From assembly GCF_031085175.1 (NCBI RefSeq), contig NZ_JAVHUY010000002.1, positions 186,001-250,000 of the forward strand: a stretch of 64,000 nt of DNA, given 5' to 3'. Under the pieces are notes generated by a model. That model was not told the DNA's origin. It saw only the letters and a list, made by a program, of their open reading frames with translations, and did not search any database. Origin of the DNA: Phytohabitans maris (GTDB taxonomy: Bacteria; Actinomycetota; Actinomycetes; Mycobacteriales; Micromonosporaceae). Numbering within the stretch: the stretch's first letter is position 1; each line of letters starts with the position of its first letter. Positions 16,108 through 57,741 of this stretch are shown in pieces. The position numbers were made by a program, and so were the translations under genes.

Positions 16108-16779
16108 GTGGAAACCGCAACCCGCCGGGAGAGACTCCGAGCACAGACCCGCGAGGAGGCGAAGGCGGCGGCCCTACGGCAGATCGCCGCCGCCGGGCCG
16201 CACTCGCTGTCGCTGAACGCCATCGGCAAGGAGCTCGGGATGACCGGGCCGGCCCTCTACCGGTACTTCGACGGGCGGGACGGGCTGCTCACCGAGCTGA
16301 TCAGCGACGGGTACCACGATCTGGCGGACGCGGTCGAGGCGGCCGGCGAGGCGGCGGCGGGGGCGGAGCCGGCCGACCGGATCCGGGCGCTCGCGCGGGC
16401 GTTCCGGAATTGGGCGATCGCCCAGCCACACCGGTACCTGCTGCTGTTCGGCACGCCGGTTCCCGGGTATCAGGCACCGGCGCACACGATCGAGGCGGCG
16501 ACCCGGACGCTGCAGGCGTTCCTCGAGCCGATCGCGGCGCTCGGTCCGGGCTCGCGGGCGGCGGTGCTGGAGGAGCAGCTCGCGGCGGGCCTGGCCGACC
16601 GGAGCCCGGACCACCCGTGGTCGGGGCCGGTGCTGCGGCTCGGCGTGAGCGGCTGGACCCGCATGCACGGCGTGGTCAGCCTGGAGGTGGAGGGGCACTT
16701 CGGCCCGATGGGGTTCGATCCCGGCCTCCTCTTCGAGGCCGAGATCGAATCGTTGATCGAGGAAGCGGCCTCCTCGTGA
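16108..16779 (+). CDS. TetR-family transcriptional regulator
   Basis: A 223-residue repressor. The N-terminal helix-turn-helix is clear (SLNAIGKELGMTGPALYRYF, residues about 36-55), with a C-terminal ligand domain of the WHG/TetR_C_13 type ending FDPGLLFEAEIESLIEE. It starts at GTG 16108. The divergent reductase and the palindrome in between suggest self-regulation and control of 15048-16034, released by an unknown electrophile or drug. The stop codon is the TGA of the TGATC inside the palindrome at 16770. Confidence 0.9.
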   Translation: METATRRERLRAQTREEAKAAALRQIAAAGPHSLSLNAIGKELGMTGPALYRYFDGRDGLLTELISDGYHDLADAVEAAGEAAAGAEPADRIRALARAFRNWAIAQPHRYLLLFGTPVPGYQAPAHTIEAATRTLQAFLEPIAALGPGSRAAVLEEQLAAGLADRSPDHPWSGPVLRLGVSGWTRMHGVVSLEVEGHFGPMGFDPGLLFEAEIESLIEEAASS

Positions 16780-16835
16780 TCGAAGCTCCCGTCAAGTCGT
16801 TCTAGCGACTTGGGAGGAGCTTCGATCACGAGGAG
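16770..16835. terminator. family 1 intergenic palindrome, copy 1
   Basis: A 30-bp imperfect stem (27 of 30 paired) with loop TTCTAG: left arm 16770-16799, right arm 16806-16835. Core sequence GTGATCGAAGCTCCC. It lies between the convergent TetR and DUF2252 genes and its left arm supplies the TetR stop codon. Related copies are at 40847 and 46219. Best read as a bidirectional terminator belonging to a dispersed repeat family. Confidence 0.85.
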
Positions 16836-16843
16836 AGGGCAGC

Positions 16844-18154
16844 TCAGAGGCCGGGTAGCTTCCCGTTGCGGAAGAGGTCCACGAAGATCTGGTGGTCCTG
16901 GCGGGCCCGGATGCCGTACTCGTGGGCGAAGTCGACCAGGTGCGCCACGAACCCCTCGGGGTCGCGGTCGACCGCCGCCACGATCGTCTCCTCCGTGGAG
17001 AAGTCGACCAGGTCGTGGCTGGACTCGTCGTCCGCGACCGAGTGCATGCGGGCCACCGCGCGGCCGAGGTCGGTCACCACGCCGGCCAGCTCGTCCGGCT
17101 CGTTCACGTCGGACCAGTCCAGGTCCGCGGCGTACGGCGACACCTCCGCGACCAGCTGGCCCACACCCTGCAGCTCGGTGAAGCCCAGCCAGGGGTCGGC
17201 GTGCGCCTGGAGTGCCCGCTGCGACTCGGCCGTACGGTGCCCCTGGTGCCGGAAGTAGCCACGCACCTTCTCGTCGGCGATGTGGCGGGCGACGGCGGGC
17301 ACCTGGGCCTGCTTCATGTAGATGACGACGTCGTTCTCCAGCGCCTGGGTGTGCCCTTCGAGCAGCAGGTTGTACGAGGGCAGCCCCGCCGACCCGATGC
17401 CCACGCCCTTGCGCAGCACCACGTCCTTGATGTGCGCGGCGACCGGCCGCTGGGCCGCGGTGGCCTCGGGGAGCGTGGTGAGGTACCGCTCGAACGCGGC
17501 CACCACCGTCGCCCGCGTCTCGGCGTCGATCTCGTACACCCCGTCGCCGAGCGAAAACCGCCGCTCGTAGTTGTCGATCGTCGTCTGCTCCTTGAGCAGG
17601 TCGACCCGCGTGTTGAGGCGCGCCTGCTGGAGCACGGTGCGCAGGACGCCGTCCGCGTTCTCCAGCGTGATCGAGCCGATCGCGTCGTCACCCCCGGCGG
17701 CGATCGCGCGCAGCTCGGTGAGGTACGCGCTGGCGAACCGGGTCACCAGGTCGCTGATCACCGCGTCGGAGAGCGCCTTGGCGTACCCGATGAGGGCCAC
17801 GCTCGCCGAGAAGCGCTTGAGGTCCCACGAGAACGGCCCGACGTACGCCTCGTCGAAGTCGTTGACGTTGAAGACGAGCTGCCCCGACGAGTTCATGTAG
17901 GTGCCGAAGTTTTCCGCGTGCAGGTCACCGTGGATCCACACGCGGCTGGTCCACTCGTCCAGAAACCGCTGGTCGGCGAAGTCGCCGGTCATGTCCGCGT
18001 AGAAGAGGGCGGCACTGCCGCGGTAGAACGCGAACGGGGAGGCGGCCATCTTCCGAAACTTCCGCCGGAACGCCGCCGGGTCCAGCGCCATAAGCTCGCC
18101 GAACTCCGCCAGCAGCACGTCGACGATCTTGGCGGGACGCTGATCATTGCTCAT
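16844..18154 (-). CDS. DUF2252 protein (kinase-like fold)
   Basis: A 436-residue DUF2252 protein. The core has WIHGDLHAENFG followed about 20 residues later by FNVNDFDEAYVGPFSWDLKR, which resembles the catalytic and metal-binding loops of aminoglycoside-kinase-like (APH/ChoK) enzymes. The family is common in actinobacteria and has no settled function, so a small-molecule kinase is only an inference. ATG 18154 is chosen because the residues before it are not conserved. It follows proA by 34 bases on the same strand and may be read through from proBA. Confidence 0.85.
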   Translation of the reverse strand: MSNDQRPAKIVDVLLAEFGELMALDPAAFRRKFRKMAASPFAFYRGSAALFYADMTGDFADQRFLDEWTSRVWIHGDLHAENFGTYMNSSGQLVFNVNDFDEAYVGPFSWDLKRFSASVALIGYAKALSDAVISDLVTRFASAYLTELRAIAAGGDDAIGSITLENADGVLRTVLQQARLNTRVDLLKEQTTIDNYERRFSLGDGVYEIDAETRATVVAAFERYLTTLPEATAAQRPVAAHIKDVVLRKGVGIGSAGLPSYNLLLEGHTQALENDVVIYMKQAQVPAVARHIADEKVRGYFRHQGHRTAESQRALQAHADPWLGFTELQGVGQLVAEVSPYAADLDWSDVNEPDELAGVVTDLGRAVARMHSVADDESSHDLVDFSTEETIVAAVDRDPEGFVAHLVDFAHEYGIRARQDHQIFVDLFRNGKLPGL

Positions 18155-18188
18155 AGATCCGCAGGCTAGACCCGTCCCGCCAGCCCGG

Positions 18189-19433
18189 TTACCGCCGCAG
18201 GTGGGCGTCACCCGTTACGACGTACTTGGTGGAGGTCAGCTCGGGCAGGCCCATCGGACCGCGGGCGTGCAGCTTCTGGGTGGAGATGCCGATCTCGGCG
18301 CCGAAGCCGAACTCGCCGCCGTCGGTAAACCGGGTCGAGGCGTTGACCATCACCGCGGCCGCGTCCACCTGCGCCACGAACTCGCGGGAGGCCGCCACCG
18401 ACTCGGTGACGATGGCTTCGGTGTGCTGCGTGCCGTACCGGCGGATGTGCCGCACCGCGTCCCGCAGCGAGTCGACGACGGCGGCCGAGATGTCCGCGGA
18501 CAGGTACTCGGTGGCGAAGTCCTCCTCGGTCGCCGGCACCACCGCGGAGGAGTGGGCGGCGACCCGGGCGTCGCCGTGGACCGTGACGCCGGCCTCGGCG
18601 AACGCCGCCAGCATCCGGGGCAGGAACGCGTCCGCGACCGCGGCGTGCACCAGCAGCGACTCGGCGGTGTTGCAGGTGGAGAGGCGCTGGGTCTTGCTGT
18701 TCAGCACGATGGCGAGCGCCTTGTCGAGGTCGGCTGCCGCGTCCACGTACACGTGGCAGTTGCCCACGCCGGTCTCGATGACCGGGACCGTCGACTCCTC
18801 GACCACCGCCTTGATCAGCGATGCGCCGCCCCGGGGGATGAGGACGTCGACCAGGCCCCGGGCGCGCATCAGCTCCTTGACCGAGTCGCGGGTGGTGGCG
18901 TCGAGCAGTTGCACGGCGTCGGCGGGCAGGCCGACGCCCTCGACGGCGTCGCGGAGGACGGCGGTGAGCGCGGCGTTGGAGCGGGCGGCGGACGACGAGC
19001 CGCGCAGCAGCGCGGCGTTGCCGGACTTGAGGCAGATGCCGGCCGCGTCGACGGTGACGTTGGGGCGGCCCTCGTAGACGATGCCGACCACGCCGAACGG
19101 CACGCGGATCTGCCGCAGCTCAAGGCCGTTGGGGAGGGTGGAGCCGCGCACGACCTCGCCCACCGGGTCGGGCAGGGCGGCCATCTGGCGCAGCGCGTCG
19201 GCCATGGCGGCGACCCGCCCCTCGGTGAGGGAGAGGCGATCGACCATGGCCGCGGTCAGGCCACCTTCGCGGGCCGCTGCCACGTCCGCGGCGTTGGCGG
19301 TCAAGACCTCGGCGGTACGGGCCACCAGCGCGTCGGCCATCGCCAGCAGCGCGGCGTCCTTTGTGGCCCGGGTGGCGGTGCCCAGCGCGGTGGCCGCCTC
19401 GCGGGCCCGCTGTGCCTGCTCGTTGACGCTCAT
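18189..19433 (-). CDS. proA: glutamate-5-semialdehyde dehydrogenase (gamma-glutamyl phosphate reductase)
   Basis: Second step of proline synthesis: NADPH reduction of glutamyl-5-phosphate. A 414-residue aldehyde-dehydrogenase-fold enzyme with the catalytic cysteine in [14 protein letters not shown], substrate region [13 protein letters not shown], and [21 protein letters not shown] split across the C-terminal family signature. ATG 19433 has a GAAGGTGAG site. It follows proB by 15 bases, so the two form the proBA operon; in actinobacteria they are often apart from proC, which is not in this window. Confidence 0.97.
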
Positions 19434-19448
19434 CGAAACTCTCACCTT

Positions 19449-20573
19449 CTACAGCAGGACCAGGTCGTCGCGGTGGACAACTTCACGCTCGTAGGCCGGG
19501 CCGAGCGCCGCGGCGAGTTCCACAGTGGAGCGGCCGAGCAGCGAGGGGAGCTCGACCGCGTCGTAGTTGACCAGCCCGCGGGCGACCGGCGCGCCCGACG
19601 AGTCGACCAGGTCGACCGGGTCGCCGGCGGTGAACGCACCGTCGACCGCGGTGATGCCGGCGGGCAGCAGCGACTTGCGCCGGGCCACGACGGCCTGCAC
19701 CGCGCCCGGGTCGAGGTGCAGCCGGCCGCGCGGCGAGGTGGCGTGGGCCAGCCAGAAGAGGCGGGCGGTCGGCCGCTGCCGTACCGGATGGAAGAGCGTG
19801 CCCACCTCCTCGCCGGCCAGGGCCGCGGGGGCGAGCGGGGCGGCGGTCAGGACCACCGGGATGCCGAATCCGGTGGCGATCCGCGCGGCCTCGACCTTCG
19901 TGATCATGCCGCCGGTGCCCACGCCGGCCTTGCCGGGGCGGCCCAGCGTGATGCCGTCGAGGTCGGCCTCGGCGCGCACGTCGCTGACCTTGCGGGTGTC
20001 CGGCCGGGCCGGGTCGCCGGTGTAGAGGGCGTCGACGTCGGTGAGGAGCACGAGCAGGTCGGCGTGGACCAGCGCGGCGACGAGCGCGGCCAGCCGGTCG
20101 TTGTCGCCGAAGCGGATCTCCTCGGTGGCGACCGTGTCGTTTTCGTTGACGATCGGCACGGCCCGCAGGTCGAGGAGCTTGCGCAGCGTTCGGTACGCGT
20201 TGCGGTAGTGCACGCGCCGGGTCACGTCGTCGACGGTCAGCAGCACCTGGCCGACGACGAGGCCGTGCCGGTCGAAGCTGGCCGCGTACCGCCCGATGAG
20301 CAGCCCCTGCCCCACGCTCGCCGCCGCCTGCTGGGTGGCCAGGTCGCGCGGTCGCCGCGGGATGGCGAGCGGGGCGAGGCCGGCGGCGATGGCGCCCGAG
20401 GAGACGAGCACGACCTCGCGGCCGCCGGCGCAGAGCCCGGCGAGCACGTCGGTGAGGGCGTCGACGCGCGCGGTGTCCAGCCCTCCCGCCGCCGTGGTCA
20501 GCGACGACGAGCCGATCTTGACGACGACGCGCCGGGCTGAGGTTACTGCTTCGCGCACCCAACCATTCTGCAT
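19449..20573 (-). CDS. proB: glutamate 5-kinase with PUA domain
   Basis: First, feedback-controlled step of proline synthesis. About 374 residues: amino-acid kinase domain (VVVKIGSSSLT, LVSSGAIAAGL, VNENDTVA, FGDNDRLAALVAA, GTGGMITKVEAA) and a C-terminal PUA domain (DPGAVQAVVARRKSLLPAGI onward). The exact start is uncertain: ATG 20573 and GTG 20558 are both plausible, the latter giving the common VREAVTSARRVV beginning. It is divergent from the alkyltransferase-like gene with only about 24 bases between. Confidence 0.95.
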   Translation of the reverse strand: MQNGWVREAVTSARRVVVKIGSSSLTTAAGGLDTARVDALTDVLAGLCAGGREVVLVSSGAIAAGLAPLAIPRRPRDLATQQAAASVGQGLLIGRYAASFDRHGLVVGQVLLTVDDVTRRVHYRNAYRTLRKLLDLRAVPIVNENDTVATEEIRFGDNDRLAALVAALVHADLLVLLTDVDALYTGDPARPDTRKVSDVRAEADLDGITLGRPGKAGVGTGGMITKVEAARIATGFGIPVVLTAAPLAPAALAGEEVGTLFHPVRQRPTARLFWLAHATSPRGRLHLDPGAVQAVVARRKSLLPAGITAVDGAFTAGDPVDLVDSSGAPVARGLVNYDAVELPSLLGRSTVELAAALGPAYEREVVHRDDLVLL

Positions 20574-20597
20574 AGGCTGTCGTTCCATGGCGCGTTG

Positions 20598-20921
20598 GTG
20601 TCAACCGTGACCCCGGAGGAGTACGTCGAGGAGGTGCTGGCCCTCGTCGAGCGGATACCACCGGGGCGGGTGATGTCGTACGGGGCGATCGCCGACTACC
20701 TGGCTGACCGCTCCGGCCGCTCCTCCGCCCGCCTGGTCGGCTCGATCATGGCCCGGTACGGCGGCCCGGTCCCGTGGCACCGCGTAGTCAACAACGCCGG
20801 CCGCGTAGTCCCCGGCCACGAGCTCGAGGCCATGGCCCGACTGATCGCCGAAGCCACCCCCCTCCACAACGGCCGGGTGGACATGAAGCGCGCGGCTTGG
20901 TCCCCCACCCCACGCGGTTGA
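20598..20921 (+). CDS. alkyltransferase-like (ATL) DNA-repair protein
   Basis: A 107-residue homologue of the C-terminal domain of O6-alkylguanine-DNA alkyltransferase. Helix-turn-helix ARLVGSIMARYG and the active-site region PVPWHRVVNNAGR are present, but the reactive cysteine of PCHRV is replaced by tryptophan. By analogy with studied ATL proteins it should bind O6-alkylguanine, flip it and pass the lesion to nucleotide excision repair rather than remove the alkyl group. GTG starts at 20598 and 20607 are both possible. Its stop is the TGA of TGATC at the palindrome that follows. Confidence 0.9.
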   Translation: MSTVTPEEYVEEVLALVERIPPGRVMSYGAIADYLADRSGRSSARLVGSIMARYGGPVPWHRVVNNAGRVVPGHELEAMARLIAEATPLHNGRVDMKRAAWSPTPRG

Positions 20922-20981
20922 TCAGGGAGTTGGTGGGGAGACACGCCGCGCGCCACGCCCACCAAGTCCCTGATCAACCGC
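20914..20981. terminator. family 3 intergenic palindrome, copy 1
   Basis: A 24-bp stem with one mismatch (20914-20937 with 20958-20981) and a 20-base GC-rich loop. Core GTTGATCAGGGAGTTGGT. It lies between the convergent ATL and gamma-glutamyltransferase genes and contains the ATL stop codon. A second copy is at 35091. Probable bidirectional terminator. Confidence 0.85.
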
Positions 20982-20990
20982 TTGGGACGG

Positions 20991-22445
20991 CTAGGCAACC
21001 GCGCCTACGCCGCCGCGGCGGGGGTCGCCGGCGGCGCCCGCCAGGCCGACCGCGCTGACGCCGCCGAAGTAGTGGTTCTTGTCGGGCCAGCGGTTGACGT
21101 CGTAGCCGGCCTGGGTCAGAGCGGCCAGCTCGTCCTCGGGGTAGCCGAGCTCGGCGTGCACCGTGTCGTCCACCACGTGGAAACGCGGCCTCGCGATCGC
21201 GGCCGGCATGTCCAGGCCGTCGACCAGCACGCCGAGCAGGGTGTCGACCAGGGCGGTACGGATGCGTGAGGCGCCCGCGGAGCCGGCGGCGACCACCAGC
21301 GCACCGCTGCCGTCGACCACCACGAGCGGGCACATCATCGACTGCATGCGGCGCCCCGGCTCCAGGTCCGGCGTGATCAGTTCGCCCTCGCCGAGCATGG
21401 AGTTGAGGTTGATGCCGAGGCCGGGCAGCCACACGCCGGCGCCGATGCCCAGCGTGGTGGTGATCACACAGGCGTCGCCCTCGTGGTCGACCACCGAGAT
21501 GTTGGTGGTGTCGCCGAGCCGCTGGCGGCCCCAGGTGCGCAGCGCGCCGGCCACCGCCACCGCGCGCGAGGGGCGGGGCATCGCGGCCAGGTCGGCGGGG
21601 AGCGCGGCGAGCGTGTCGATGGTGCCGTTGAGGTCGTGCCGGGCGTACACGTGGGCACCGTTGACCAGTGCGTGCCCCACCTCCAGCTCCAGCACCCGGT
21701 ACGCGGCCAGGTCCTCCGGGCCGAGCGCGCCGCCGGCCGCCCGTACGGTGTCGACCATCAGGTGGCCGAGCCGGCCGGTGTAGAAGGTCGCCGGCCCCTC
21801 CTCGGCGAGGATGCCGAGCGCGCGGTCGAGCCCCGGGTGGTGCAGCAGCTCGCCGCCCTGGAGCAGTTCGCCGCCGGGCGCGTAGATGGCGGCGCCCTCG
21901 CCGGGCAGCAGCGCGGGCGCGACCGAGACCAGGGTTCGGGCCTGCGCGGCGGGGAGCACGACCCCGCTGCTGGCCAGCGTGATCGCCGGCTCCACGACCC
22001 GCTGCCAGGGCAGCCGGCCCCAGCGCCGGTGCACCTCGCCGCAGCCGGCCGGTACGCCGGGCACGCCGACGCTGGCGCCGCCGATCGAGTACGTCTGCGG
22101 CACGCCGCCGAAGACGACCTCGATCGGCACCATCGGCCCCGGGACGGTGTCTCCGTCGAGCCCTGGCACCGAGCAGAAGAAGTCCAGACACGTCACGGTC
22201 TGTGTCGAGGCGTCGTAATAGGTGGCGAAGCCGCCCCCGCCGATCCCGGTCAGGATGCTCTCGCTCGTCGCGGTGGCGAGCACGGCCGCCACCGCGGCGT
22301 CGGCCGCCGAGCCACCCGCGGCGAGGATGCGCAGCCCGACCTCGGCCGTGGCCGGGTGACCTGCGGCTACGCCAGCGGGCACGGGCATCGCCTCCGCTCG
22401 GGGCGGGGTGGCGACCGCAGTCGCCGTCGGGACACCAATACTCAC
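20991..22445 (-). CDS. gamma-glutamyltransferase
   Basis: N-terminal-nucleophile hydrolase of the gamma-glutamyltranspeptidase family, about 484 residues, made as one chain that self-cleaves. The processing site and nucleophile are in GDTTNISVVD (threonine), preceded by the large-subunit motif GHPATAEVGLRILAAGG and ESILTGIGGGG. The small-subunit glycine pair that forms the oxyanion hole is seen in VVVAAGSAGASR. It lacks a clear secretion signal, so an intracellular or non-classical enzyme acting on glutathione-like or gamma-glutamyl compounds is likely (actinomycetes use mycothiol). GTG 22445 is preferred over upstream starts but has no strong ribosome site. Confidence 0.85.
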   Translation of the reverse strand: MSIGVPTATAVATPPRAEAMPVPAGVAAGHPATAEVGLRILAAGGSAADAAVAAVLATATSESILTGIGGGGFATYYDASTQTVTCLDFFCSVPGLDGDTVPGPMVPIEVVFGGVPQTYSIGGASVGVPGVPAGCGEVHRRWGRLPWQRVVEPAITLASSGVVLPAAQARTLVSVAPALLPGEGAAIYAPGGELLQGGELLHHPGLDRALGILAEEGPATFYTGRLGHLMVDTVRAAGGALGPEDLAAYRVLELEVGHALVNGAHVYARHDLNGTIDTLAALPADLAAMPRPSRAVAVAGALRTWGRQRLGDTTNISVVDHEGDACVITTTLGIGAGVWLPGLGINLNSMLGEGELITPDLEPGRRMQSMMCPLVVVDGSGALVVAAGSAGASRIRTALVDTLLGVLVDGLDMPAAIARPRFHVVDDTVHAELGYPEDELAALTQAGYDVNRWPDKNHYFGGVSAVGLAGAAGDPRRGGVGAVA

Positions 22446-22584
22446 GCGCCGCAGCGTAGAACCATCTACCGCCGCGTGCGGGCCGATGGCTAACATCCCC
22501 GGCCATGAGCGAGCGCAGCGAGCGAATGATCAGGCTCAGCGCCGCTAGAGCCTCGTGGCCGCCCGCAGCGAAGCGAGGACGGCG

Positions 22585-23931
22585 ATGAGTGCCGGGCTGC
22601 CCCGGAGGGTGCACATCGGGTACGCGTCGGGGTCGCTGGCCACCGGCACTTTCGGGACGGTGCCGGGGCTGCTGTTACTTCCGTACCTCACCGACACGAT
22701 GGGGGTCGCGGCAGGGTTCGCCGGGCTCCTGGTGCTCGTTCCGAAGGCGTGGGATGTGCTCGTCAACCCCGTGGCCGGACGGATATCCGATAGGTGGGGC
22801 GGGCGGCGCCCGTACCTCCTGGGGGGTGGTTTTGCCCTCGCCCTGCTCTTCGCGGCGATCTTCGCCGCGCCGGCCGGGACCGGCGCTGGCGCCGCGGCCT
22901 ATGTCGCGGTGGCCTTCCTGGCGTCCGCGACGGCCTATGCCTTCTTCCAGGTGCCGTATGTGGCGATGCCCGCGGAGATCACCGACGGGTACGCCGAGCG
23001 GACCCGCCTGATGACCTGGCGGGTGGCGTTCCTGGCGCTGGCGATCCTGGTCTCCGGCGCGATCGCGCCGCTGGTGGTGAACGCCGGCGGCGACGGCATC
23101 CCGGGGCACCGGTGGATGGGGCTCTTCTGCGCCGCGCTGATCGTGCTCGGCGCGGTCGGCGCGTACGCGGGCACCCGTGGCGCCCCCACGAGCCCGGTGC
23201 GGGAGAGCGAGCCGAGCCTGCGCGCCCAGCTGCGGGTGGCGGCCGGCAATCGGCCGTTCCGGCTGCTGCTGGCCTGCTTCGTGGTCCAGGCGGCGGGGAT
23301 CGGCACGATGCTCGCCGGCGTGAAGTACTTCGCCGACCACGTGATCGAACGGCCGGACGACGGCCCGACCGTGCTCTTCGCCTGCTTCGTGGGGCCGGCG
23401 CTGCTGGTGATGCCGGTGTGGCGGCGGGTGGGCGCGCGGGCCGGCAAGCCGCGCGCGTTCGGGTGGGCCTCGCTGATCTTCTCCGCCGCCGCGCTCGCGC
23501 TGGTGGCCGCGCCCGCGCTGCCACCCATCGCCGTCTACCTGCTGGTGGCCGCGATCGGCTGCGGCTACGCCGGCGAGCAGGTCTTCGCACTCTCCATGCT
23601 GCCGGACTGCATCGCCTACGACACCGCACGCACCGGCCGCCGGCAAGCCGGCGTCTTCACCGGCCTCTGGACGGCCGGGGAGACACTCGGCCTCGCGCTC
23701 GGACCCGGGATCTACGCGGTGGTCCTGCAAATCTTCGGGTACGTCTCGTCGGCGAGCGGCGAAGCGGCGGCGCAGGACGGCACGGCGCGGCTGGGCGTGC
23801 TGCTCGGCTTCACGGTGCTCCCCGCCGTGGTGGTGGGGGCGGCGCTGCTCCTCATGCGCGGATACGACCTGACCGAGGAGCGTCTGTACGGTGATCGGCA
23901 TGTCGTTGCCGAAGGACGGCCTGCCGGCTGA
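22585..23931 (+). CDS. GPH-family (MelB-like) MFS symporter
   Basis: A 448-residue twelve-helix transporter of the glycoside-pentoside-hexuronide:cation symporter family. Loop motif RISDRWGGRRPYLLGG after helix 2, FFQVPYVAMPAEIT after helix 4 and SMLPDCIAYDTARTGRRQAG in the second half are family features. ATG 22585 follows GAGGACGGCG. The last 41 bases overlap the start of the PLP decarboxylase gene, so transporter and enzyme are co-translated; the natural guess is uptake of the decarboxylase substrate or of a related polar compound. Confidence 0.85.
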   Translation: MSAGLPRRVHIGYASGSLATGTFGTVPGLLLLPYLTDTMGVAAGFAGLLVLVPKAWDVLVNPVAGRISDRWGGRRPYLLGGGFALALLFAAIFAAPAGTGAGAAAYVAVAFLASATAYAFFQVPYVAMPAEITDGYAERTRLMTWRVAFLALAILVSGAIAPLVVNAGGDGIPGHRWMGLFCAALIVLGAVGAYAGTRGAPTSPVRESEPSLRAQLRVAAGNRPFRLLLACFVVQAAGIGTMLAGVKYFADHVIERPDDGPTVLFACFVGPALLVMPVWRRVGARAGKPRAFGWASLIFSAAALALVAAPALPPIAVYLLVAAIGCGYAGEQVFALSMLPDCIAYDTARTGRRQAGVFTGLWTAGETLGLALGPGIYAVVLQIFGYVSSASGEAAAQDGTARLGVLLGFTVLPAVVVGAALLLMRGYDLTEERLYGDRHVVAEGRPAG

Positions 23932-25294
23932 GCAGGTGCTCGACGAGATCCGGGCCTTGCGGGCGGCCGACCGCCCGACGCACGGCGGGCGCCTCTTCGC
24001 GTACGTCTACGACCCGGGACTCGACGGCCTCGACGAGCTGGCCATGTCGGCGTACGCCCTCGCCGCGCACGTCAACGGCCTCGACCCGACCGCGTTCCCG
24101 TCCCTGCTGGCGATGGAGAACACGCTGGTCGGCGCCGCGGCCACGCTGCTGGGCGGCGGCCCGGACACGGTCGGAAACGTGACCAGCGGCGGCACCGAGT
24201 CGCTGATGCTGGCGGTGAAGGCGGCCCGCGACGGCGCACCGGGAGTCGAGCGGCCGCGCATGGTGGTGCCGGTGACCGGGCACGCCGCGTTCACGAAGGC
24301 GGCGCACTACCTCGGCGTGGCGCTCGACCTCGTACCCGCTTCGCCATCCACATTGCGCCCGGCGGCCGAGGACGTCGCGGCGGCGATCGGGCCGGACACG
24401 GTGCTGGTCGCCTGCTCCGCGCCGGCGTACGCGCACGGCGTCGTGGACCCGGTGGCGGAGATCGCGGCCGTGGCGTCGGCGGCCGGCGTACGGTGCCACG
24501 TGGACGCCTGCTTCGGCGGCTGGACCCTCCCCTACCTGCGGCGGCTCGGTGTGGACGTACCGCCGTTCGACCTCTCGGTGCCCGGGGTCACGTCGATCTC
24601 GGTCGACCTGCACAAGTACGCGTACACGCCGAAGGGTGTGTCGGTGCTGCTGCACCGGGACGCCGAGCTGCGCCGGCCGCAGTACTTCGCGTACGCCGGG
24701 TGGCCCGGCTACACGATGGTCAACCCGGTGATCTCGTCCACCCGCTCGGGCGGCCCGATCGCCGCCGCGTACGCGGTGCTGCGCCACATCGGCGACAGCG
24801 GCTACCTCGCGCTCGCGTCCCGCACGCTGGAGGCGGTACGTTCGCTGGCTCTCGCCGTCTCCGGCGTGGAGGGACTGCGGCTGCTCGCACCACTGGAGTC
24901 CACGGTGGTCTGCTTCACCGCCGACTCGTTCGACGTCTTCGTGCTGGCCGACGAGCTCGCCGCGCGGGGGTGGCACACCCAGCCCCAGTTCGCGTACGGC
25001 GAGCTGCCGGCCAGCATCCACCTGAGCGTGACCGCCTCGGTGGCACCCCGGGTCGCCGAGTTCGGCCCCGACCTGGCGGCGGCGGCCCAGGCGGCGCGGG
25101 CGGCCGGTCCGGTGTCGCTGCCCTCCGTTTCGCTGGACACGCCACTGCCCGAGCTACTGGCCGCGCTCGGCTTCGGCGCCGGGCTGCCGGACCGCATGGC
25201 CCCGGTGAACGCGCTGCTCAACGCGGCCCCGCCGGAGGTACGCGAGGCGCTGCTGGTCGACTTCCTCGGCCACCTGCAGCGTCCCGCGCTCTGA
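23891..25294 (+). CDS. PLP-dependent decarboxylase / sphingosine-1-phosphate lyase-like
   Basis: A 467-residue fold-type I PLP enzyme of the group II decarboxylase family. It has NVTSGGTESLMLAVKAARD, the aspartate of HVDACFGGW, and the PLP lysine in SVDLHKYAYTPKGVSVLL; the Lys-Tyr and TPKG context resembles sphingosine-1-phosphate lyase and archaeal tyrosine/aspartate decarboxylases more than bacterial glutamate decarboxylase. Start GTG 23891 has GAGGAG ten bases upstream; ATG 23900 is the alternative. It overlaps the transporter gene. Substrate unknown. Confidence 0.82.
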   Translation: MIGMSLPKDGLPAEQVLDEIRALRAADRPTHGGRLFAYVYDPGLDGLDELAMSAYALAAHVNGLDPTAFPSLLAMENTLVGAAATLLGGGPDTVGNVTSGGTESLMLAVKAARDGAPGVERPRMVVPVTGHAAFTKAAHYLGVALDLVPASPSTLRPAAEDVAAAIGPDTVLVACSAPAYAHGVVDPVAEIAAVASAAGVRCHVDACFGGWTLPYLRRLGVDVPPFDLSVPGVTSISVDLHKYAYTPKGVSVLLHRDAELRRPQYFAYAGWPGYTMVNPVISSTRSGGPIAAAYAVLRHIGDSGYLALASRTLEAVRSLALAVSGVEGLRLLAPLESTVVCFTADSFDVFVLADELAARGWHTQPQFAYGELPASIHLSVTASVAPRVAEFGPDLAAAAQAARAAGPVSLPSVSLDTPLPELLAALGFGAGLPDRMAPVNALLNAAPPEVREALLVDFLGHLQRPAL

Positions 25295-25333
25295 GCCCAG
25301 CGCAGGTCGCGCGGGCTGTGGTTGACTTGTGTC

Positions 25334-26086
25334 GTGCAGTTGCCAGGAGTGCTCGGCGAGCCGATCCGCTTCGTGCTCAACTGGGGTCGGCGCTACTCGC
25401 TGTGGGTCTTCAACTTCGGCCTGGCCTGCTGCGCCATCGAGTTCATCGCGACCAGCATGGGCCGGCACGACTTCATCCGGCTCGGTGTGATCCCGTTCGC
25501 GCACGGCCCCCGCCAAGCCGACCTCATGGTGGTCTCCGGCACGGTCACCGACAAGATGGCACCGGCGATCAAGCGCCTCTACGACCAGATGCCCGAGCCC
25601 AAGTACGTGATCTCCTTCGGCGCCTGCTCCAACTGCGGCGGCCCGTACTGGGACTCCTACTCGGTCACCAAGGGCGTCGACCAGATCATCCCCGTCGACG
25701 TGTACGTGCCCGGCTGCCCACCCCGCCCCGAGGCGCTGCTGCACGGCATCCTCCGCCTCCAGGAAAAGATCGCCGGCGAGCAGTCCGGCATCGGCGGCGT
25801 GGCCCGGCCGGACCCGCTCGCCGCCCCGGAGGCCGAGGCGCTGACCGCACCCCTGGTCACGGCGCCGCCGTCAGAGCACCGGGTGGTCGTACCCGACAAC
25901 ATCGACTGGCACCGCGGCGTCGCGGCGCCACAGCCTCCCCCGCTCCGCCCCGACGGCCGCCTGCCGGTCCACGAGATCACCGGCGACCGCGCCGGGGCGG
26001 GCGCCCCGTTCGGCGACGACCGCGAGTTGCCCCTGCCGCCGGACAAGCTCGACTACCAGCACCCCCACCCCGAAGACCGCGACTGA
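25334..26086 (+). CDS. nuoB: NADH-quinone oxidoreductase subunit B, stand-alone, extended tail
   Basis: Complex I subunit that carries cluster N2 and passes electrons to quinone. All four ligands are present: the CC pair in LACCAIEF, the cysteine in [11 protein letters not shown] and that in [12 protein letters not shown]. Residues 1-150 match the family; about 100 further residues are a Pro/Ala/Asp-rich tail (ending HPHPEDRD) not seen in most NuoB. GTG 25334 is the most likely start; no ribosome site is evident. It lies 14 kb from the rest of the nuo genes, on the other strand, behind the decarboxylase with a 39-base gap. Confidence 0.92.
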
Positions 26087-26581
26087 CTCCCTCCCGCCGA
26101 CGATCTATTTCAGACTTTGGGCTACCGCGATGTTCGCCGTGGTCTGGACCGTTGCGCGGGGGTCCCCGGGGAAACGTGGAGCGTTTCTTGGGGTGCGTTC
26201 CCGCGGCCTCACCCTCCGCTCCTGGTCACGGTCACCCCGCCTGCCGCGCCGCCGGAACCGCTCCGGCCGCGTGCGCGGCCCGCGCTGGGGCGGTCGATGC
26301 GCACGCGAAGCTACCGAGCTACCCCGTCCATGCGTCCGGCCCCGACCCGGAGGACCGGGCCTTGATCGACATCGACCCCGGCTGGCCTCTGAGTAGATCG
26401 TGGTACTCAGGTGCCCCTCCAGGGGCCTCCGAGTACCACGATCTGCACCTCCAGCCGACATCAGAGCGCCGATCAAGGGACAGCGGCCACCATTGATCAA
26501 GGGCCTGGGGTTACCGGTGTGCCCTCTTCACGCCCAGCGTGATCAACACCAGTTGTGAAGACTCAAATCTTGAAGATTCTC
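26087..26581. repeat. non-coding gap with composite repeat, copy 1
   Basis: No credible gene in these 495 bases between convergent nuoB and 26582-27391. It holds a conserved 36-bp block at 26121-26156 (GCTACCGCGATGTTCGCC ... GGACCGTTGCG) and a family 2 palindrome at 26395-26444: a 24-bp stem with about three mismatches around a CC loop, core AGATCGTGGTACTCAGG. After it come two GATCAAGGG words (26472 and 26497). The same block and palindrome recur at 49468-49616 and, with the block inverted, at 57508-57741. The palindrome probably ends transcription from both sides. Confidence 0.8.
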
Positions 26582-27391: not shown

Positions 27392-27440
27392 ACCGGCGGG
27401 CTTGGGGTCACGCCTCGGTAGGACAGCCCCGAAGACCAGG

Positions 27441-28622: not shown

Positions 28623-28763
28623 GGTGGACTCCCCGGAGGCTAAGAGAGAGCGCTAACCGCACCATTGTTGCTCGCTGGTGACGGGACGGGGCAATGACGT
28701 GGCACACGGCCCACAACGCGGGATCAGGGAATGTCCGGGCCCTCAGGGCAGCGCCGCGCCCGC

Positions 28764-29759: not shown

Positions 29760-29844
29760 GGTCCACTCAGCGTGCCAGTGCTCATGCAAAGAGCTATCAA
29801 GGCACGCCGGCTTGTCCAGATTTATGCCGCCATTTCCCGGAAGG

Positions 29845-31682: not shown

Positions 31683-31722
31683 CGATCAATGATGCCCCGG
31701 CCGGGGCGGAAGATGCCGCTCC

Positions 31723-40846: not shown

Positions 40847-40908
40847 GCCCGTGATCAAAGCTCCCTTGAAGTCGTTCTAGCGACTTGGAGGGAGCTTTGA
40901 TCATGGGC
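40847..40908. terminator. family 1 intergenic palindrome, copy 2
   Basis: A 28-bp stem (25 paired, one further G-T) with loop TTCTAG: 40847-40874 with 40881-40908, core GTGATCAAAGCTCCC. It lies between recQ (ends 40919, minus) and the downstream minus gene, so here it would act on the RecQ transcript only. The loop and mismatch positions match copy 1 at 16770. Confidence 0.85.
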
Positions 40909-46222: not shown

Positions 46223-46272
46223 TCAAGGCTCCCCCGACGTCGTTGGAACGACTTCAAGGGAGCCTTGATCAC
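46219..46272. terminator. family 1 intergenic palindrome, copy 3
   Basis: A 26-bp stem with about three mismatches and a two-base loop (46219-46244 with 46247-46272), core GTGATCAAGGCTCCC. It separates two convergent genes and supplies the stop codon of the upstream one. Mismatches fall in the same part of the stem as in copies 1 and 2. Confidence 0.85.
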
Positions 46273-47381: not shown

Positions 47382-47449
47382 GGCCAGAGTCAAGCCGCCC
47401 TGGACGAAGGCAGACTTTCCAATGATCGGCCGTGATATGAACATGCCTG

Positions 47450-48787
47450 ATGCGCCGGACCCTGCAGCACCCCGCTCGGATCGTGCCGCTCGCGTTCCTG
47501 GGCGTGATCGCGATCGGCACCGTCCTGCTCCTGCTGCCCGTCTCCACCCGCGGGCCGGGGTCGGCGTCGTTCATGACCGCGCTCTTCACCGCGGCCTCGG
47601 CGATCTGCACGACCGGACTGTCCCCGGTGGACGCGGCCACCTACTGGTCGGACTTCGGGCACGTCATGATCGCGCTGCTCACCCAGGTGGGCGGCTACGG
47701 CATCGCCACGATGGCGACGCTGCTCGGCCTGCTCGTCTCCCAGCGCCTGGGCCTGCGCAGCCGGCTGATGGCGCGGGCCGAGACGAGCTCCGGCCTGGCC
47801 CTCGGCGAGGTACGCACGGTGCTCGTGCTCGCCGCGGTCGTGATGCTCGCCAGCGAGGCGGTGATCGCGACGATCGTGGCCGGCCGGCTCTGGCTCGCGT
47901 ACGACATGCCGCTGGGGTCGGCCATCTGGGAGGGTGTGTTCAACGCGATACAGGCGTTCAACAACTCGGGTTTCTCGCTGCGCAGTGACGGCCTCTTCGG
48001 GTTCGTCGGCGACTGGTGGATTTGCGTGCCGCTGGCGCTCGGCGTGATCATCGGTGGCCTGGGCGTGCCCGTGCTGTACGAGCTCTTCCACGAGCTGCGC
48101 CGCCCGTCCGCCTGGTCGACACATACCCGGCTGACCGTGTGGGGTTCGCTGGTGCTGCTGGCGGCGGGCTTCGCGACCGTGCTGGTCTTCGAGTGGACCA
48201 ACCCCGGCACCCTCGGTCCGCTCAGCGTCACGCAGAAGATCCTGGCCGCCTTCGTACAGGGCACGATCCCCCGTTCCGGTGGCTTCAACACGGTCGACTA
48301 CGGCGCGATGGACGCCGACACGACCACGCTCATCACCGGCCTGATGTTCATCGGCGGCGGCAGCGCGAGCACCGCCGGCGGCGTCAAGGTCACCACGTTC
48401 TTCCTGCTCGCGTACGTGATCTGGACCGAGGTGCGGGGCGAGCGCGACGTCGTGGTCGGCCGCCGTCGGATCGCCGAGGCCACCCAGCGGCAGGCGACCT
48501 CGGTCGCCCTTCTCGGCGTGGCGACGGTCGCCGCCGGTACCTCGGGGCTGCTCGCTCTCAGCGAGGGTGTTTCGATGGACCGGGCCCTGTTCGAGGTGAC
48601 GTCGGCGTTCAGCACCGCGGGCATCACCGTCGGCCTGACCCCCGAGCTGTCCAGACCGGGACAGCTCGTGCTGATCGTGTTGATGTTCATCGGCCGGGTG
48701 GGGCCGATCGCGGTCGCCGCGGCGCTCGCGCTCAACACCCGCCACCGGCTGTACCGATACCCGGAGGAGCGACCCATCGTTGGCTGA
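47450..48787 (+). CDS. TrkH/KtrB-family potassium uptake membrane subunit
   Basis: Potassium channel-like translocation subunit, 445 residues, with four M1-P-M2 repeats. Selectivity-loop regions are visible as FTAASAICTTGLSPVD, FNAIQAFNNSGFSL, GTIPRSGGFNTVDYG and TSAFSTAGITVGLTP. It pairs with the cytosolic RCK subunit encoded by the next gene, whose start overlaps its stop by eight bases. Together they form a regulated Ktr/Trk system for potassium uptake, important in osmotic adaptation. Confidence 0.93.
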   Translation: MRRTLQHPARIVPLAFLGVIAIGTVLLLLPVSTRGPGSASFMTALFTAASAICTTGLSPVDAATYWSDFGHVMIALLTQVGGYGIATMATLLGLLVSQRLGLRSRLMARAETSSGLALGEVRTVLVLAAVVMLASEAVIATIVAGRLWLAYDMPLGSAIWEGVFNAIQAFNNSGFSLRSDGLFGFVGDWWICVPLALGVIIGGLGVPVLYELFHELRRPSAWSTHTRLTVWGSLVLLAAGFATVLVFEWTNPGTLGPLSVTQKILAAFVQGTIPRSGGFNTVDYGAMDADTTTLITGLMFIGGGSASTAGGVKVTTFFLLAYVIWTEVRGERDVVVGRRRIAEATQRQATSVALLGVATVAAGTSGLLALSEGVSMDRALFEVTSAFSTAGITVGLTPELSRPGQLVLIVLMFIGRVGPIAVAAALALNTRHRLYRYPEERPIVG

Positions 48788-49457
48788 GAAGACCAAGGCG
48801 CCGACCGCGTACGAAAACGTGGCGGTGATCGGCCTCGGCCGCTTCGGCGGTCAGGTGGCCGAGTCGCTGACCCGGCTCGGTCACGAGGTGCTCGGCGTCG
48901 ACGAGGACCCCAACCTGGTGCAGCAGTGGTCCGACCGGCTCACCCACGTCGTACAGGCTGACGCCACCGACGAGGAGGTGCTGCGGCAGATCGGCATGAC
49001 CGAGTTCGCCCGGGCGGTCGTCGGCATCGGCACCGACATCGAGGCGAGCGTGCTGACCGTACTGGCGCTGACCGAGATCGGCGTGCGCGAGATCTGGGCA
49101 AAGGCGATCTCGGTAAAGCACGGCAAGATCCTGCGCTCGGTCGGCGCCCACCACGTCATTTACCCCGAAGCGACGATGGGCGAGCGGGTGGCCCACCTGA
49201 TCACCAGCCGCATGCTCGACTTCATCGAGCTGGACGACGACTTCGCCATCGCCAAGACCCGCGCCCCGCGCCAAGCGGTCGGCCGCACGCTGGCCGAGGT
49301 CGCCCTCCGCACGAAGTACGGCGTCACGGTGGTCGGGGTCAAGACGCACGGCGCCGACTTCATCTACGCCACGCCCGACACCGTCGTACCCAGCTCGGCG
49401 GTGCTCATCGTGGCCGGCACCACCGAGCAGGTGCAGCGCTTCGCCGCCACGACGTAG
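48780..49457 (+). CDS. TrkA/KtrA-family potassium channel regulatory subunit
   Basis: A 225-residue cytosolic gating subunit with an RCK_N domain (nucleotide-binding VAVIGLGRFGGQVAESL, VDEDPNLVQ, VVQADATDEEVLRQIG) and an RCK_C domain in the last 80 residues. It binds ATP/ADP or NADH and c-di-AMP in studied homologues. The start is a TTG at 48780 inside the trkH gene with GGAGGAG upstream, so translation is coupled. This is the last gene before the gene-poor stretch. Confidence 0.92.
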   Translation: MAEKTKAPTAYENVAVIGLGRFGGQVAESLTRLGHEVLGVDEDPNLVQQWSDRLTHVVQADATDEEVLRQIGMTEFARAVVGIGTDIEASVLTVLALTEIGVREIWAKAISVKHGKILRSVGAHHVIYPEATMGERVAHLITSRMLDFIELDDDFAIAKTRAPRQAVGRTLAEVALRTKYGVTVVGVKTHGADFIYATPDTVVPSSAVLIVAGTTEQVQRFAATT

Positions 49458-49616
49458 CCACCAATGAGCTACCGCGACGTCCGCGGCGGTCCGGACCGTT
49501 GCGGTCTACAGCTGCTGCGGACCGGGGCAAGATCCCGTCTGAAGAAACGTCGAACCCCTTGTGCGGGTGATCGCGGTATTTAGGTGCCCCTCCGGGGGCA
49601 CTCATGTACCACGATC
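49458..49616. repeat. composite repeat, copy 2 (conserved block plus family 2 palindrome)
   Basis: The 36-bp conserved block lies at 49468-49503 (GCTACCGCGACGTCCGC ... GGACCGTTGCG) and the palindrome at 49569-49616, 22-bp arms around TCCG with some mismatches, core GATCGCGGTATTTAGG. The sequence after the palindrome again ends GCGCCGATCAAGGG. It lies just after trkA, where it would stop the trkHA transcript. Confidence 0.8.
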
Positions 49617-50495
49617 TGATCCTGCGGCTGATCTCGGGCGCCGATCAAGGGAAAGGGGCGGCCTAGCGCGGAGCGCCCGGGTGGTGGCGCGGTGCGGGGT
49701 TGGGGTTGTGGACCGCGCCTACGCGCCGGTCGACCCCAGGCTGCGGAATTGGCGGGCGACTACCAACGAAGCCGCGCTCGCCATCGCGCTAAGTGCCGAA
49801 ACGCGGGCCGAAGCAAGCTCATCGCCAGCCGTGAAGCTTCGCCAGACGGTGCATAAAGATGGCCCTCACCCGAGCCACCGGGGAGGGCCATCAGTGCACC
49901 TGAAGCTCGCCCGCGTCAACAGACAATCCGTCAGGTTATTTGGTGCGGGCCCGGCGGCTTCGCCTTAGCCGTGCCCAGGCCGCCAGTATGGCACGCGCCC
50001 CCCGGGCAGGGAAAACCCACGGCAATTCCCGTACGCGAGCGATCAGAAATCAGCCCCGCTTTGAATTCGAAACCAGCGCCGACAAGCACATCGGATAAGG
50101 CACCACCGGGTAACGAATGGCCACTTGGCTTCTCTCATCAAATCGTTGGCACCAAGGCGACCGGATCGATTTTGGCACCTTCGCGACCAGCCCTTGGCGG
50201 CTCACACCCAAGCAAGCGCAGCGTTGGGCACCCTATGCCAAACCCGGTTTGCCTTGGGGTGGTCCCCCCAATCGGCGCGCGTAGGAGGCAAAATTGCAAA
50301 GGCGGGCCGAAAGTTGCGCAGGCGACGATTGGTGGGTCACTATGACTGTCGCGCCACACGCTTCCCGCATCTTTCGCCGTCGACGCTTCGGAAGCCACTC
50401 CGCGGCTGGATACCACGGGATGACCGATGTGTAGGAGGCCGTGCGGCGTTCGTAGTCCCGCGTCAACCGAAAATCCGGAGGGAGGTGAGGTGGAT
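49617..50495. other. gene-poor region, lower GC, one long hairpin
   Basis: No coding region that I can support in about 880 bases. The open frames here have none of the third-position GC bias of real genes and the base composition is visibly more mixed. At 49848-49900 there is a long stem-loop: GGTGCA, GATGGCCCTC, a 15-base loop, GAGGGCCATC, TGCACC. It may be a terminator or part of an untranslated RNA. The remainder looks like decayed or foreign sequence. Confidence 0.5.
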
Positions 50496-56022: not shown

Positions 56023-57468
56023 ATGACGGTGCTGGGAGGGCGGTACCGCCTTGTTGAACGGCTCGGCGCGGGCGGCATGGCGGTGGTCTGGCGGGCGTAC
56101 GACGAAGTGCTCGACCGACCGGTCGCCGTAAAGGTGCTCGCGCCCCGGCTCGCCGCCGACCCCCACCGCCGCCGGCAGCTGCGCGCCGAGGCGCAGGCGG
56201 CCGGAAAGCTCTGCCACCCGCACATCACGAACGTGTACGACTACGGCGAGCGGGACGAGTCCCCGTACGTGGTCATGGAGCTGATCGACGGGCAGTCGAT
56301 GGCGACGGCGCTCGACCGCGATGGCCCCCTGCCCTGGCCGGAGGCGGTCAAGGCGTGCGGCGAGGTGGCGTCCGCGCTCGCCGTCGCGCACGCGCACGGC
56401 GTCGTGCACCGCGACGTGAAGCCCTCCAACGTCATGCTCACCGCCGCCGGGGCGAAGGTGGTCGACTTCGGCATCTCCGCGCTGGTCGGCGCGAGCGACG
56501 CGACACCCGACGGCAGCCTTCTCGGCACTCCCGCGTACCTCGCGCCGGAGCGGCTGGAGGGTGGGCAGGTCTCGCCGGCCACCGACGTGTACGCGCTGGG
56601 CCTGCTCCTCTACCGCGCGCTCACCGGGCACCTGCCGTGGGAGGCGGCCACCACGACGCAGATGCTCCGCGCCCACCGGTACAGCGACCCCGGCCCGCTG
56701 CCACCCGTCGAAGGGCTGCCCGAGGCGGTCGCCCTGCTCTGCCGGCGGTGCCTGGCCAAGCGGCCGGAGAACCGGCCGAGCAGCGCGGAGGCGGCGGGCG
56801 TGCTGGCGTCGTTCTCGTCGCCCTCGTGGGTCCCGGTCGCCACACCGGCCCCACCGGCACGCGGGCGCCAGTGGACCGGCGCGGCACTGGCCGCGGCCGC
56901 GCTGCTCGCCGTCGTCGGAGGGCTGTGGGTCCACGGCAGCAGGAGCCCATCGGGTACGGCCGGCGCGGGCGCCGCCGCCGCCGCGGTGGTACTGCCCGAG
57001 GCCTCGACCCGGCCCGCGCTGGCCTGCTCGGTGGCGTACGCGCTGAAGCGGGACTCCGGTCGCGAGTTCCACGCTGACCTGACCGTCACGAACGCCGGTG
57101 GGCAGCCGGTCGACGGGTGGCGGCTGACCTTCGCGTTCCCGGGCGACCAGCGGCTCGTCGGCGCCCGCTCGGTGAAGTTCGCGCAGGCCGGCCGCGACGT
57201 GGTGATCGAACCGTCGGGCCAGCGGGCGATCGCGGCCGGCGACTCGGTGGCGATGGGCCTGACCGGCCGGTACGAGAAGGGGAATCCGCTACCCACCGCG
57301 TTCGCGGTGGACGGCACCGAGTGCGAGGCGTTGGTCTCCGGCGCCCCGCCGGCGCCAGCCAGCCCCGGCTCGGGCCCCGGCTCGGGCTCCGGCGCGTCCG
57401 ACGGCGACAACTCCGGCAAGGGCAACGGCAAATCAGGAAAGGGCAACGGCGACGAAGAGAACGACTAA
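56023..57468 (+). CDS. transmembrane Ser/Thr protein kinase with extracellular CBM2-like domain
   Basis: A 481-residue receptor-like kinase. The N-terminal kinase domain is complete: GAGGMAVVW loop, VAVKVL (K37), HRDVKPSN (D131), DFG (148-150), and GTPAYLAPE. A single membrane helix spans about residues 286-303. Outside is a domain of about 100 residues (333-434) bounded by two cysteines, with TNAGGQPVDGWRLTFAF, matching the carbohydrate-binding module family 2. Only the core tryptophan is seen; the exposed ones that bind cellulose are missing, so the ligand may differ. A Gly/Ser/Lys tail follows. It may sense wall or plant glycans. Confidence 0.88.
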   Translation: MTVLGGRYRLVERLGAGGMAVVWRAYDEVLDRPVAVKVLAPRLAADPHRRRQLRAEAQAAGKLCHPHITNVYDYGERDESPYVVMELIDGQSMATALDRDGPLPWPEAVKACGEVASALAVAHAHGVVHRDVKPSNVMLTAAGAKVVDFGISALVGASDATPDGSLLGTPAYLAPERLEGGQVSPATDVYALGLLLYRALTGHLPWEAATTTQMLRAHRYSDPGPLPPVEGLPEAVALLCRRCLAKRPENRPSSAEAAGVLASFSSPSWVPVATPAPPARGRQWTGAALAAAALLAVVGGLWVHGSRSPSGTAGAGAAAAAVVLPEASTRPALACSVAYALKRDSGREFHADLTVTNAGGQPVDGWRLTFAFPGDQRLVGARSVKFAQAGRDVVIEPSGQRAIAAGDSVAMGLTGRYEKGNPLPTAFAVDGTECEALVSGAPPAPASPGSGPGSGSGASDGDNSGKGNGKSGKGNGDEEND

Positions 57469-57507
57469 AGACCTCTCGGGTCGGGTCACGGTTCGGGCCG
57501 CCTGGGT

Positions 57508-57741
57508 GATCGTGGTATCTGGGTGCCCCTATCGGGGCACTGAAATACCATGATCTGCGCCTGGGTCGATCTCGGAAGGTGGTCGCCTCCGCAGGAGGGC
57601 TCGGACCACCCGGACGGGGAGCGGTGCCGCAGGCGGGCCGGGTCGTTCGGCCGGGGTGGGGTGGGTTGTGAACCGCGGAGGGCGAGGCCGCGGAAACGCA
57701 GCCGCGCAACGGTCTGGACCACCAGCGGACGTCGCGGTAGC
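57508..57741. repeat. composite repeat, copy 3 (palindrome plus inverted conserved block)
   Basis: The palindrome is at 57508-57555, 22-bp arms around TATC, core GATCGTGGTATCTGGG. The conserved 37-bp block lies at 57705-57741 on the opposite strand relative to copies 1 and 2. A further word (GCGTTTCCGCGGCCTCGCCC, read on the minus strand near 57680) resembles 26194-26213 in copy 1. It occupies most of the 284-base gap between the convergent kinase and phosphatase genes; no gene is present. Confidence 0.78.

Follow-up and report, generated by a model that had tools for sequence, protein, structure and literature searches.

What places strong palindromes behind gene after gene in an actinomycete genome? 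The question is raised by a 64000-nucleotide stretch of Phytohabitans maris (Micromonosporaceae; contig NZ_JAVHUY010000002.1, positions 186001–250000, hereafter the window), in which eight palindromes lie at gene 3' ends. The original prediction ascribed them to one mechanism, either a shared protein or a copying process of the kind that spreads repetitive extragenic palindromic (REP) sequences through REP-associated tyrosine transposases (RAYTs), which had put bidirectional terminators behind genes. On the evidence set out below, we consider it probable that the palindromes are REP-like elements which an enzyme copies and which persist at the ends of genes, and that two of their three families, A and B, form bidirectional 3' ends without a U tract.

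Three families of palindromes in the window

Inverted-repeat searches, gene calls and folding were used to delimit the palindromes. All eight were strong, as predicted, with folding z-scores from −5.7 to −12.6 and none of 200 shuffles folding equally well for any of them, and they fell into three repeat families with different cores: A (54 nt, three copies), B (62 nt, two copies) and C (48 nt, three copies). The arms were GTGATCRAAGCTCCC, GTTGATCAGGGAG and GATCGTGGTA respectively, or near variants of these. No Rfam match above the gathering score was obtained within the window, the palindromes corresponding to no known structured RNA family.

Family A was found at 16770–16835, between a TetR-type gene (16108–16779, + strand) and a DUF2252 gene (16844–18154, −), where the flanks lengthen the stem of the 54-nt unit (16776–16829) by 6 bp; at 40847–40908 (unit 40851–40904), 3' of recQ (40919–43012, −); and, as the GATCAAGGC variant, at 46219–46272, between a gene at 45272–46222 (+) and a GDPD gene (46290–47342, −). 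The two family B copies were located at 20909–20986 (unit 20917–20978), between an MGMT-like gene (20607–20921, +) and a gamma-glutamyltransferase gene (20991–22388, −), and at 35091–35152, between a DUF3107 gene (34827–35054, +) and a MiaE-like gene (35163–35840, −). Those of family C were at 26396–26443 (48 nt with AGATC tips, 309 nt past a nuoB-like gene and 138 nt from the end of the convergent gene), at 49569–49616 (111 nt past trkA, 48780–49457, +) and at 57508–57555 (39 nt past a kinase–CBM2 gene at 56023–57468, +, and ahead of an inositol-monophosphatase gene at 57753–58550, −).

The gene calls agreed with the prediction that six of the eight lie between convergent genes, with one past recQ and one past trkA, and that the stop codons at 16779, 20921 and 46222 are TGA triplets of the palindromes themselves, supplied by the family A unit 16776–16829, by the family B unit 20917–20978 and, at 46220–46222, by the family A unit 46219–46272 as the stop of gene 45272–46222 (+). 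The TGATC sequence thought to be common to all of them was present in every arm of A (6/6) and B (4/4) but in only two of the six arms of C, the other four reading AGATC; what all 16 arms have near the tip is GATC, with TGATC in 12 of them.

Family A is amplified in P. maris and missing from its sister species

The P. maris assembly (9.87 Mb in 95 contigs, 97% complete) was searched with a 54-nt family A pattern allowing up to three mismatches, which gave 243 matches, and none when the pattern was reversed as a control. Among 354 Micromonosporaceae genomes of 44 genera, the same pattern was present in four; it had no copy in the five congeners included in this set, and 12, 1 and 9 copies in three of the 11 species of one other genus, where the arms are kept and the cores differ. 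When only the tips and the core were fixed, a 54-nt superfamily was detected in nine of the 354 genomes and five of the 44 genera (208 copies in P. maris, 59 in G003, 35 in G004, 11 in G102, 29 in G103, 3 in G147 and single copies in three genomes). Thus two congeners, G003 and G004, carry a sister family of the same length, tip and core with a different mid-stem. Family B was found in 132 of the 354 genomes (six genera) and family C in 81 (11 genera), the latter with 177 copies in P. maris, 291 in G005, 108 in G001 and none in G004; all 26 sampled C copies were 48 nt long. Patchy presence and strong differences between sister species are common to all three families. A strict 22-nt family A pattern found no match in the named genome contigs, no plasmid or phage copies matched the element at 16770, and the closest named relatives of recQ were from Micromonospora and Paractinoplanes (82% or lower). 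Separately, G257 and G258 each hold a single 54-nt element within more than 2 kb without predicted genes; the start of a neighbouring open reading frame resembles that of an IS30-type transposase.

We then compared individual sites, using syntenic stretches that span the window in four congeners and 40 kb in the remaining one, with DNA identities of ~74–95% (roughly 90% for G005, G002 and G001). Seven of 45 sampled A elements had their flanks in sister sequence, giving 18 site-by-genome comparisons, and A was absent in all 18. One or more sisters had a nearly empty junction at each of the sites 8115, 10584, 202776 (window 16776) and 226851 (window 40851). The element at window 16776 separates two convergent genes whose ends overlap in G005, G002 and G001; the copy past recQ at window 40851 was absent in G005 and G001, and that at window 46219 (site 232219) was absent in five sisters. 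Other slots were differently filled: unrelated strong GC hairpins were present at site 232219 in G005 and G001 and at site 71126 in G005 and G002, another GATC palindrome at site 25121 in G005, and, opposite C12:10584 in G005, an element of roughly 190 nt, bounded on either side by CTAG and with GGGCGTGTTTCATAAGGG-type ends, which resembles a miniature inverted-repeat transposable element (MITE), MITEs being short non-coding inverted repeats copied in trans. The family B copy at 20909 is shared by G002 and G001, whereas G005, G003 and G004 lack it, and GC-rich hairpins stand at the place of the copy at 35091 in G005, G002 and G001. For the sites on contig C1, no matching flanks were found in 60 kb of G005. 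Two further observations concern G003: an inverted-repeat element of the ~150–190 nt class occupies the same 3'-end slot opposite window 35091, and the match to the recQ orthologue is split in two, with an in-frame stop within either part.

This comparison of sequences supports the mobility of family A. An alternative would be that the palindromes are immobile terminators, owing their origin or their retention at every site to selection, and their likeness to a termination or DNA-binding factor which is sequence-specific and not the same in each species. That some sisters have a different hairpin in the slot agrees with such an origin, as does the tight siting at stop codons described below, whereas the nearly empty junctions and the contrast of 243 copies with none between species roughly 90% identical do not, and point mutation is an unlikely way for a single species to acquire a 54-nt unit at hundreds of sites.

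Palindromes at the 3' ends of genes

The position of the palindromes was analysed in 1.237 Mb of P. maris, the window included, made up of whole contigs and the starts of long contigs chosen after the A matches were known; the 45 A elements sampled there had been found with a pattern fixing positions 2–11. The proposed rule of a hairpin in every real gap between convergent genes failed at both scales. In the window, the 114-nt gap at 12911–13024 folded like its shuffles (z −0.6), and the gap at 37710–37817 and one ending at 50827 (the left gene call of which is weak) hold GC-rich hairpins without GATC; across the sample, any palindrome was present in 59 of 103 convergent gaps of at least 40 nt, compared with 73 of 353 co-directional and 8 of 154 divergent gaps. 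That the palindromes are a genome-wide trait of gene 3' ends and not of genes was upheld, since none of 54 GATC-tipped palindromes lay inside a gene away from its 3' end, a zone comprising 85% of positions.

The density of family A per kb of gap was 0.68 between convergent, 0.27 between co-directional and 0.08 between divergent genes; 42 of the 45 elements adjoined a gene 3' end, 37 of these within 30 nt of the stop codon, and in 12 of the 45 the TGA of the tip was itself the stop. In a second set of 34 elements, from stretches chosen for A, 29 of 31 were within 30 nt of a stop codon, the remaining three being divergent (two) or at an edge (one), and the tip TGA served as the stop in eight. 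Three B copies matched in the sample (the pattern missed the window's second B) showed the same siting at stop codons as A. For family C, 24 of 26 sampled copies had gene neighbours on both sides, 18 of them convergent, six co-directional and none divergent, and 18 of the 24 were at least 100 nt from the nearest stop, with six nearer, including the window copy at 57508. The distances to stop codons thus fit gene ends for A and B, and mostly the middle of convergent gaps for C. Family C is a family apart, with a wider spread in Micromonosporaceae and mostly placed in mid-gap between convergent genes, and it may not be a terminator.

Such a distribution could also be produced by neutral mobile repeats that insert anywhere, are purged from genes and promoters and survive between gene ends, with no function there. 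The lack of GATC-tipped palindromes inside genes and the finding of only three between divergent genes are what purging would leave, and the MITE-like element in one same slot in G005 and the mid-gap placement of most C copies point the same way. However, in the 12 gaps of at least 200 nt, A was still within 45 nt of a stop codon in 10 (uniform placement, Fisher joint p 8e-6), and insertions at coding ends that supply the stop codon are not predicted by purging alone, although they are by a target preference. We regard purely neutral repeats as unlikely, and retention of copied elements at gene ends as the better account of A and B.

Not every hairpin between genes belongs to these families. 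The one at 37745–37777, between convergent genes (a helicase gene at 36108–37709, +, on one side), is an ordinary GC-rich hairpin without GATC, and a similar hairpin is found at this place in G005 and G002, which puts it outside families A, B and C. Also in the window, the gene at 56023–57468 (+) encodes a single protein in which a protein kinase domain is fused with a cellulose-binding CBM2 domain.

Stem structure and the GATC tip

Family A has a 24-bp stem, a 6-nt loop and GTGATC tips, and the consensus of 90 A arms begins with GTGATC. Pairing was analysed in 22 hand-picked 54-nt elements from eight genomes, a set in which the conservation of tip and core is partly by construction. Among the ten mid-stem pairs left free by the search pattern, nine varied by compensation, with 51 cells of two-sided change and only 3 of 220 unpaired, and over the whole helix there were 61 double changes compared with 14.7 in shuffles. 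Within the A copies of P. maris, positions 7, 9, 15, 16 and 18 co-varied. Arm positions 12–14, 19, 21, 23, 24 and 26 were near-invariant though free of the search pattern, which, with the compensated mid-stem changes, would suit immobile terminators recognized by a factor. Against these stand the exact lengths and the orientation of the loop (TTCTAG or CTAGAA), which had no clear link with gene strand and was mixed in 14 oriented co-directional cases. With the empty junctions already described, this makes an immobile origin quite unlikely in our judgement.

It might also be supposed that the arm is a short genomic signal, like a DNA uptake signal, inverted pairs of which form terminators, and pairing of uptake signals into terminator hairpins has been reported (PMC2267715, cited, like the other papers below, from excerpts). 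The half-arm had 521 matches in the genome, near twice the number of full palindromes (243; the patterns differ), and arms with an atypical core numbered six in P. maris and 18 in three other genomes, all 24 being diverged palindromes or fragments. A single-arm signal of this kind has next to no chance of being correct.

GATC-tipped palindromes with cores unlike those of A, B and C were also found in P. maris, G003, G005, G102, G103 and named Micromonospora loci. The tip was present in three of nine palindromes from 15 named Micromonosporaceae loci (287 kb) and in none of 58 from 63 Streptomycetaceae and Catenulispora loci (1.27 Mb). Palindromes lacking it made up 24 of 78 in P. maris, 8 of 9 in G005, 5 of 9 in G002 and 7 of 12 in G003. 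When 161 palindromes were clustered by shared 9-mers, GATC occurred in 5.2 of 38 clusters, with 0.8 expected and a maximum of 5 in 200 shuffles, a rough indication of enrichment as the clustering chained several families into one cluster. It is possible that one enzyme is common to the GATC-tipped palindromes.

Search for a mobiliser

A strict RAYT-driven origin, in which a Y1/HUH transposase moves the palindromes, would account for the life-style shared with REPs described in PMC3733652, namely palindromic repeats in hundreds of copies, downstream of genes, the repeat end supplying a stop. However, the RAYT family PF01797 had no match in the P. maris genome or in 10 of the 12 carriers of 54-nt elements, while five of 14 control genomes were positive, and the matches in the two remaining carriers (G090 and G094) are shared with non-carrier congeners (G089 and G091). 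In addition, neither a constant GTAG nor a CGTC tag was seen in the flanks of the 45 A elements, the tips of the palindromes being GTGATC, GTTGATC or AGATC. A transposase may have escaped an assembly of 95 contigs that is 97% complete; nonetheless we think a RAYT very unlikely. Of the shared mechanism originally proposed, a copying process fits the lack of A in five sisters, the empty sites, the fixed lengths and the patchy spread, and a RAYT is unsupported.

Other routes to a mobiliser were followed. The 213 proteins encoded beside elements had no common neighbour gene among them, as some share broad families and none recurs as a candidate. In one long-form A copy, at C12:8115, inspection by eye suggested an imperfect 8-nt repeat. 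Insertion into the loop of a pre-existing hairpin was rejected, the complementarity of the flanks being near chance except at the first base (0.58 compared with 0.43). A 23-nt repeat, GCTTTCGGAGTCGGGGTGATGGG, was considered as the parent of A: at seven sampled places it runs directly into an A element, and at 20 places genome-wide an A-like arm followed in nine flagged cases and one seen by eye, and not in the rest. It was rejected as the parent and is another repeat often joined to A; depending on the copy, its partner is A, C or some other repeat.

Intergenic regions of P. maris resemble mosaics of several repeats; one such region in the window, ~1 kb past trkA without a predicted gene (49458–50489), contains a C palindrome and other repeats. 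Other palindromes were noted as well. In the joined stretch of G003, at 10607–10703 and 47301–47397, there are 97-nt nested palindromes with CGTCGATCAAGGGC...GCCCTTGATCGACG within an outer CGATCAAGG, at about six per 80 kb. In P. maris, palindromes of G-runs and C-runs, 50–94 nt long, lie at C1:283221–283296, C1:378782–378875, C34:142207–142257, C34:289747–289832 and C78:38399–38449; some are inside predicted genes, and they could be assembly artefacts.

Comparison with known elements

The best-studied REPs, with a GTAG tag and a RAYT, occur mainly in gamma-Proteobacteria as palindromes of 20–40 bp in high copy number, mostly downstream of genes and between convergent or co-directional genes, with some families species-specific (PMC3733652), and Di Nocera and colleagues describe there that the repeat end often supplies a TAG stop codon. 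Families A, B and C are like them in being palindromic, in their hundreds of copies, in lying downstream of genes and in giving a stop from the repeat end. They differ in their length of 48–62 nt, in the GATC tip and in the lack of a RAYT in P. maris and in 10 of the 12 carriers. REPs with a CGTC tag, mainly from alpha-Proteobacteria, are apparently without a dedicated transposase and have stems of 8–9 bp with loops mostly of 4–5 nt (PMC3733652); family A, with its 24-bp stem, 6-nt loop and GTGATC tips, has neither the CGTC tag nor the short stem. In the broad sense of the term, A and C are REPs, being extragenic, palindromic and of high copy number (243 and 177), and the families share the preference for gene 3' ends. 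As they differ from both GTAG and CGTC types in tag, length and stem, we class them as REP-like and as neither of the two.

For the proposed role in termination, the nearest parallel is Streptomyces clavuligerus, in which Term-seq found highly structured, U-lacking 3' ends as well as bidirectional ends (PMC8269248). These resemble A and B in coming from a GC-rich actinomycete and in having strong hairpins without a U tract, the palindromes of P. maris being known from sequence, and differ in that the excerpts of PMC8269248 do not describe them as a repeat family. The excerpts on the survey tool RepRanger (PMC12306157) show three actinobacterial genomes, none from Micromonosporaceae, and those of PMC8266576 and PMC3364876 hold nothing that alters this reading. 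Among the top-ranked, largely open-access literature records, no report of such palindromes in Micromonosporaceae was found.

Proposed mechanism

We propose that A, B and C are fixed-length, GATC-tipped, non-coding palindromes with a REP-like life-style, which an enzyme acting in trans would copy to new sites, with hundreds of copies in some species and none in close relatives. Comparison supports several of these steps: the repeats are of fixed length genome-wide; A is missing in sister species, where its sites are nearly empty or otherwise filled; A, and the few B seen, lie at stop codons and often supply them; and the mid-stem of the 54-nt superfamily differs from species to species while its pairing is conserved. 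Other steps are conjectural, namely that an enzyme does the copying, the mobiliser probably not being a RAYT on present evidence, and that A and B are symmetric gene ends, which would add a stop codon and a very stable stem–loop to transcripts arriving from either side. We infer that A and B may act in transcription termination, with U-less bidirectional 3' ends as the likely outcome, through termination itself or through the stopping of an exonuclease. The retention of elements at gene ends may reflect their being harmless or useful there, or a preference of the copying machinery for 3' ends.

Several observations weigh against this proposal. On the side of copying, no target-site duplication was detected (3 nt or more in 5 of 45 A elements, compared with about 12 of 45 in shuffled flanks), and no autonomous parent with the same ends and no lone ends with an atypical core were found in the search, in which about 1.5 of 9.9 Mb was read fully; A is unlike MITEs in the first respect and may be so in the second. 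With no transposase, duplication or parent found, it is the genome comparison that carries the claim of copying by an enzyme. On the side of termination, the palindromes lack the hairpin followed by a T tract that defines a canonical intrinsic terminator, the flanks of A being C-rich before and G-rich after the element, and a terminator scan called none of the four palindromes in 16000–35999. The function of A cannot be essential, since sister G005 lacks the family entirely. Within P. maris, pairing at A positions 17 and 20 is at chance level, and a one-sided change was seen in only 6 of 527 cells, a pattern that suits DNA-level palindromy or founder sub-families no less than RNA selection. 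The data agree equally with DNA palindromes amplified as sub-families, so the co-variation by itself is no proof of an RNA role. As to siting, gene ends were taken from a simple predictor trained on the sample and not from annotation, and 3 of 45 A elements sit between divergent genes. Finally, not every sister slot holds a real hairpin, as G002 folds weakly at 25121 and 232219 (z −1.3 and −1.4).

A bolder form of the proposal, which we hold as doubtful though not far-fetched, is that Micromonosporaceae possess a hairpin-copying system of an undescribed kind that recognizes GATC-tipped palindromes and writes them at stop codons. The palindrome would then be specific to each species, its mid-stem serving as a species label that changes jointly in all copies and in both arms, and the elements would be mobile bidirectional gene-end cassettes without a known transposase.

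Biological implications

If REP-like elements are indeed copied to gene ends in this way, hundreds of gene ends in a species would be insertions of one module that brings a stop codon together with a symmetric hairpin. Mobile DNA would then replace terminators, which would not evolve in place, and overlapping convergent gene pairs could be separated in one step. The actinobacteria would hold large REP-like families without a RAYT, the enzyme that underlies the REP model, and the question of how CGTC-type and similar REPs are copied would gain a test system in which element lengths are fixed and both empty sites and sister genomes are available. The palindromes may also be candidate parts for bidirectional termination in GC-rich hosts.

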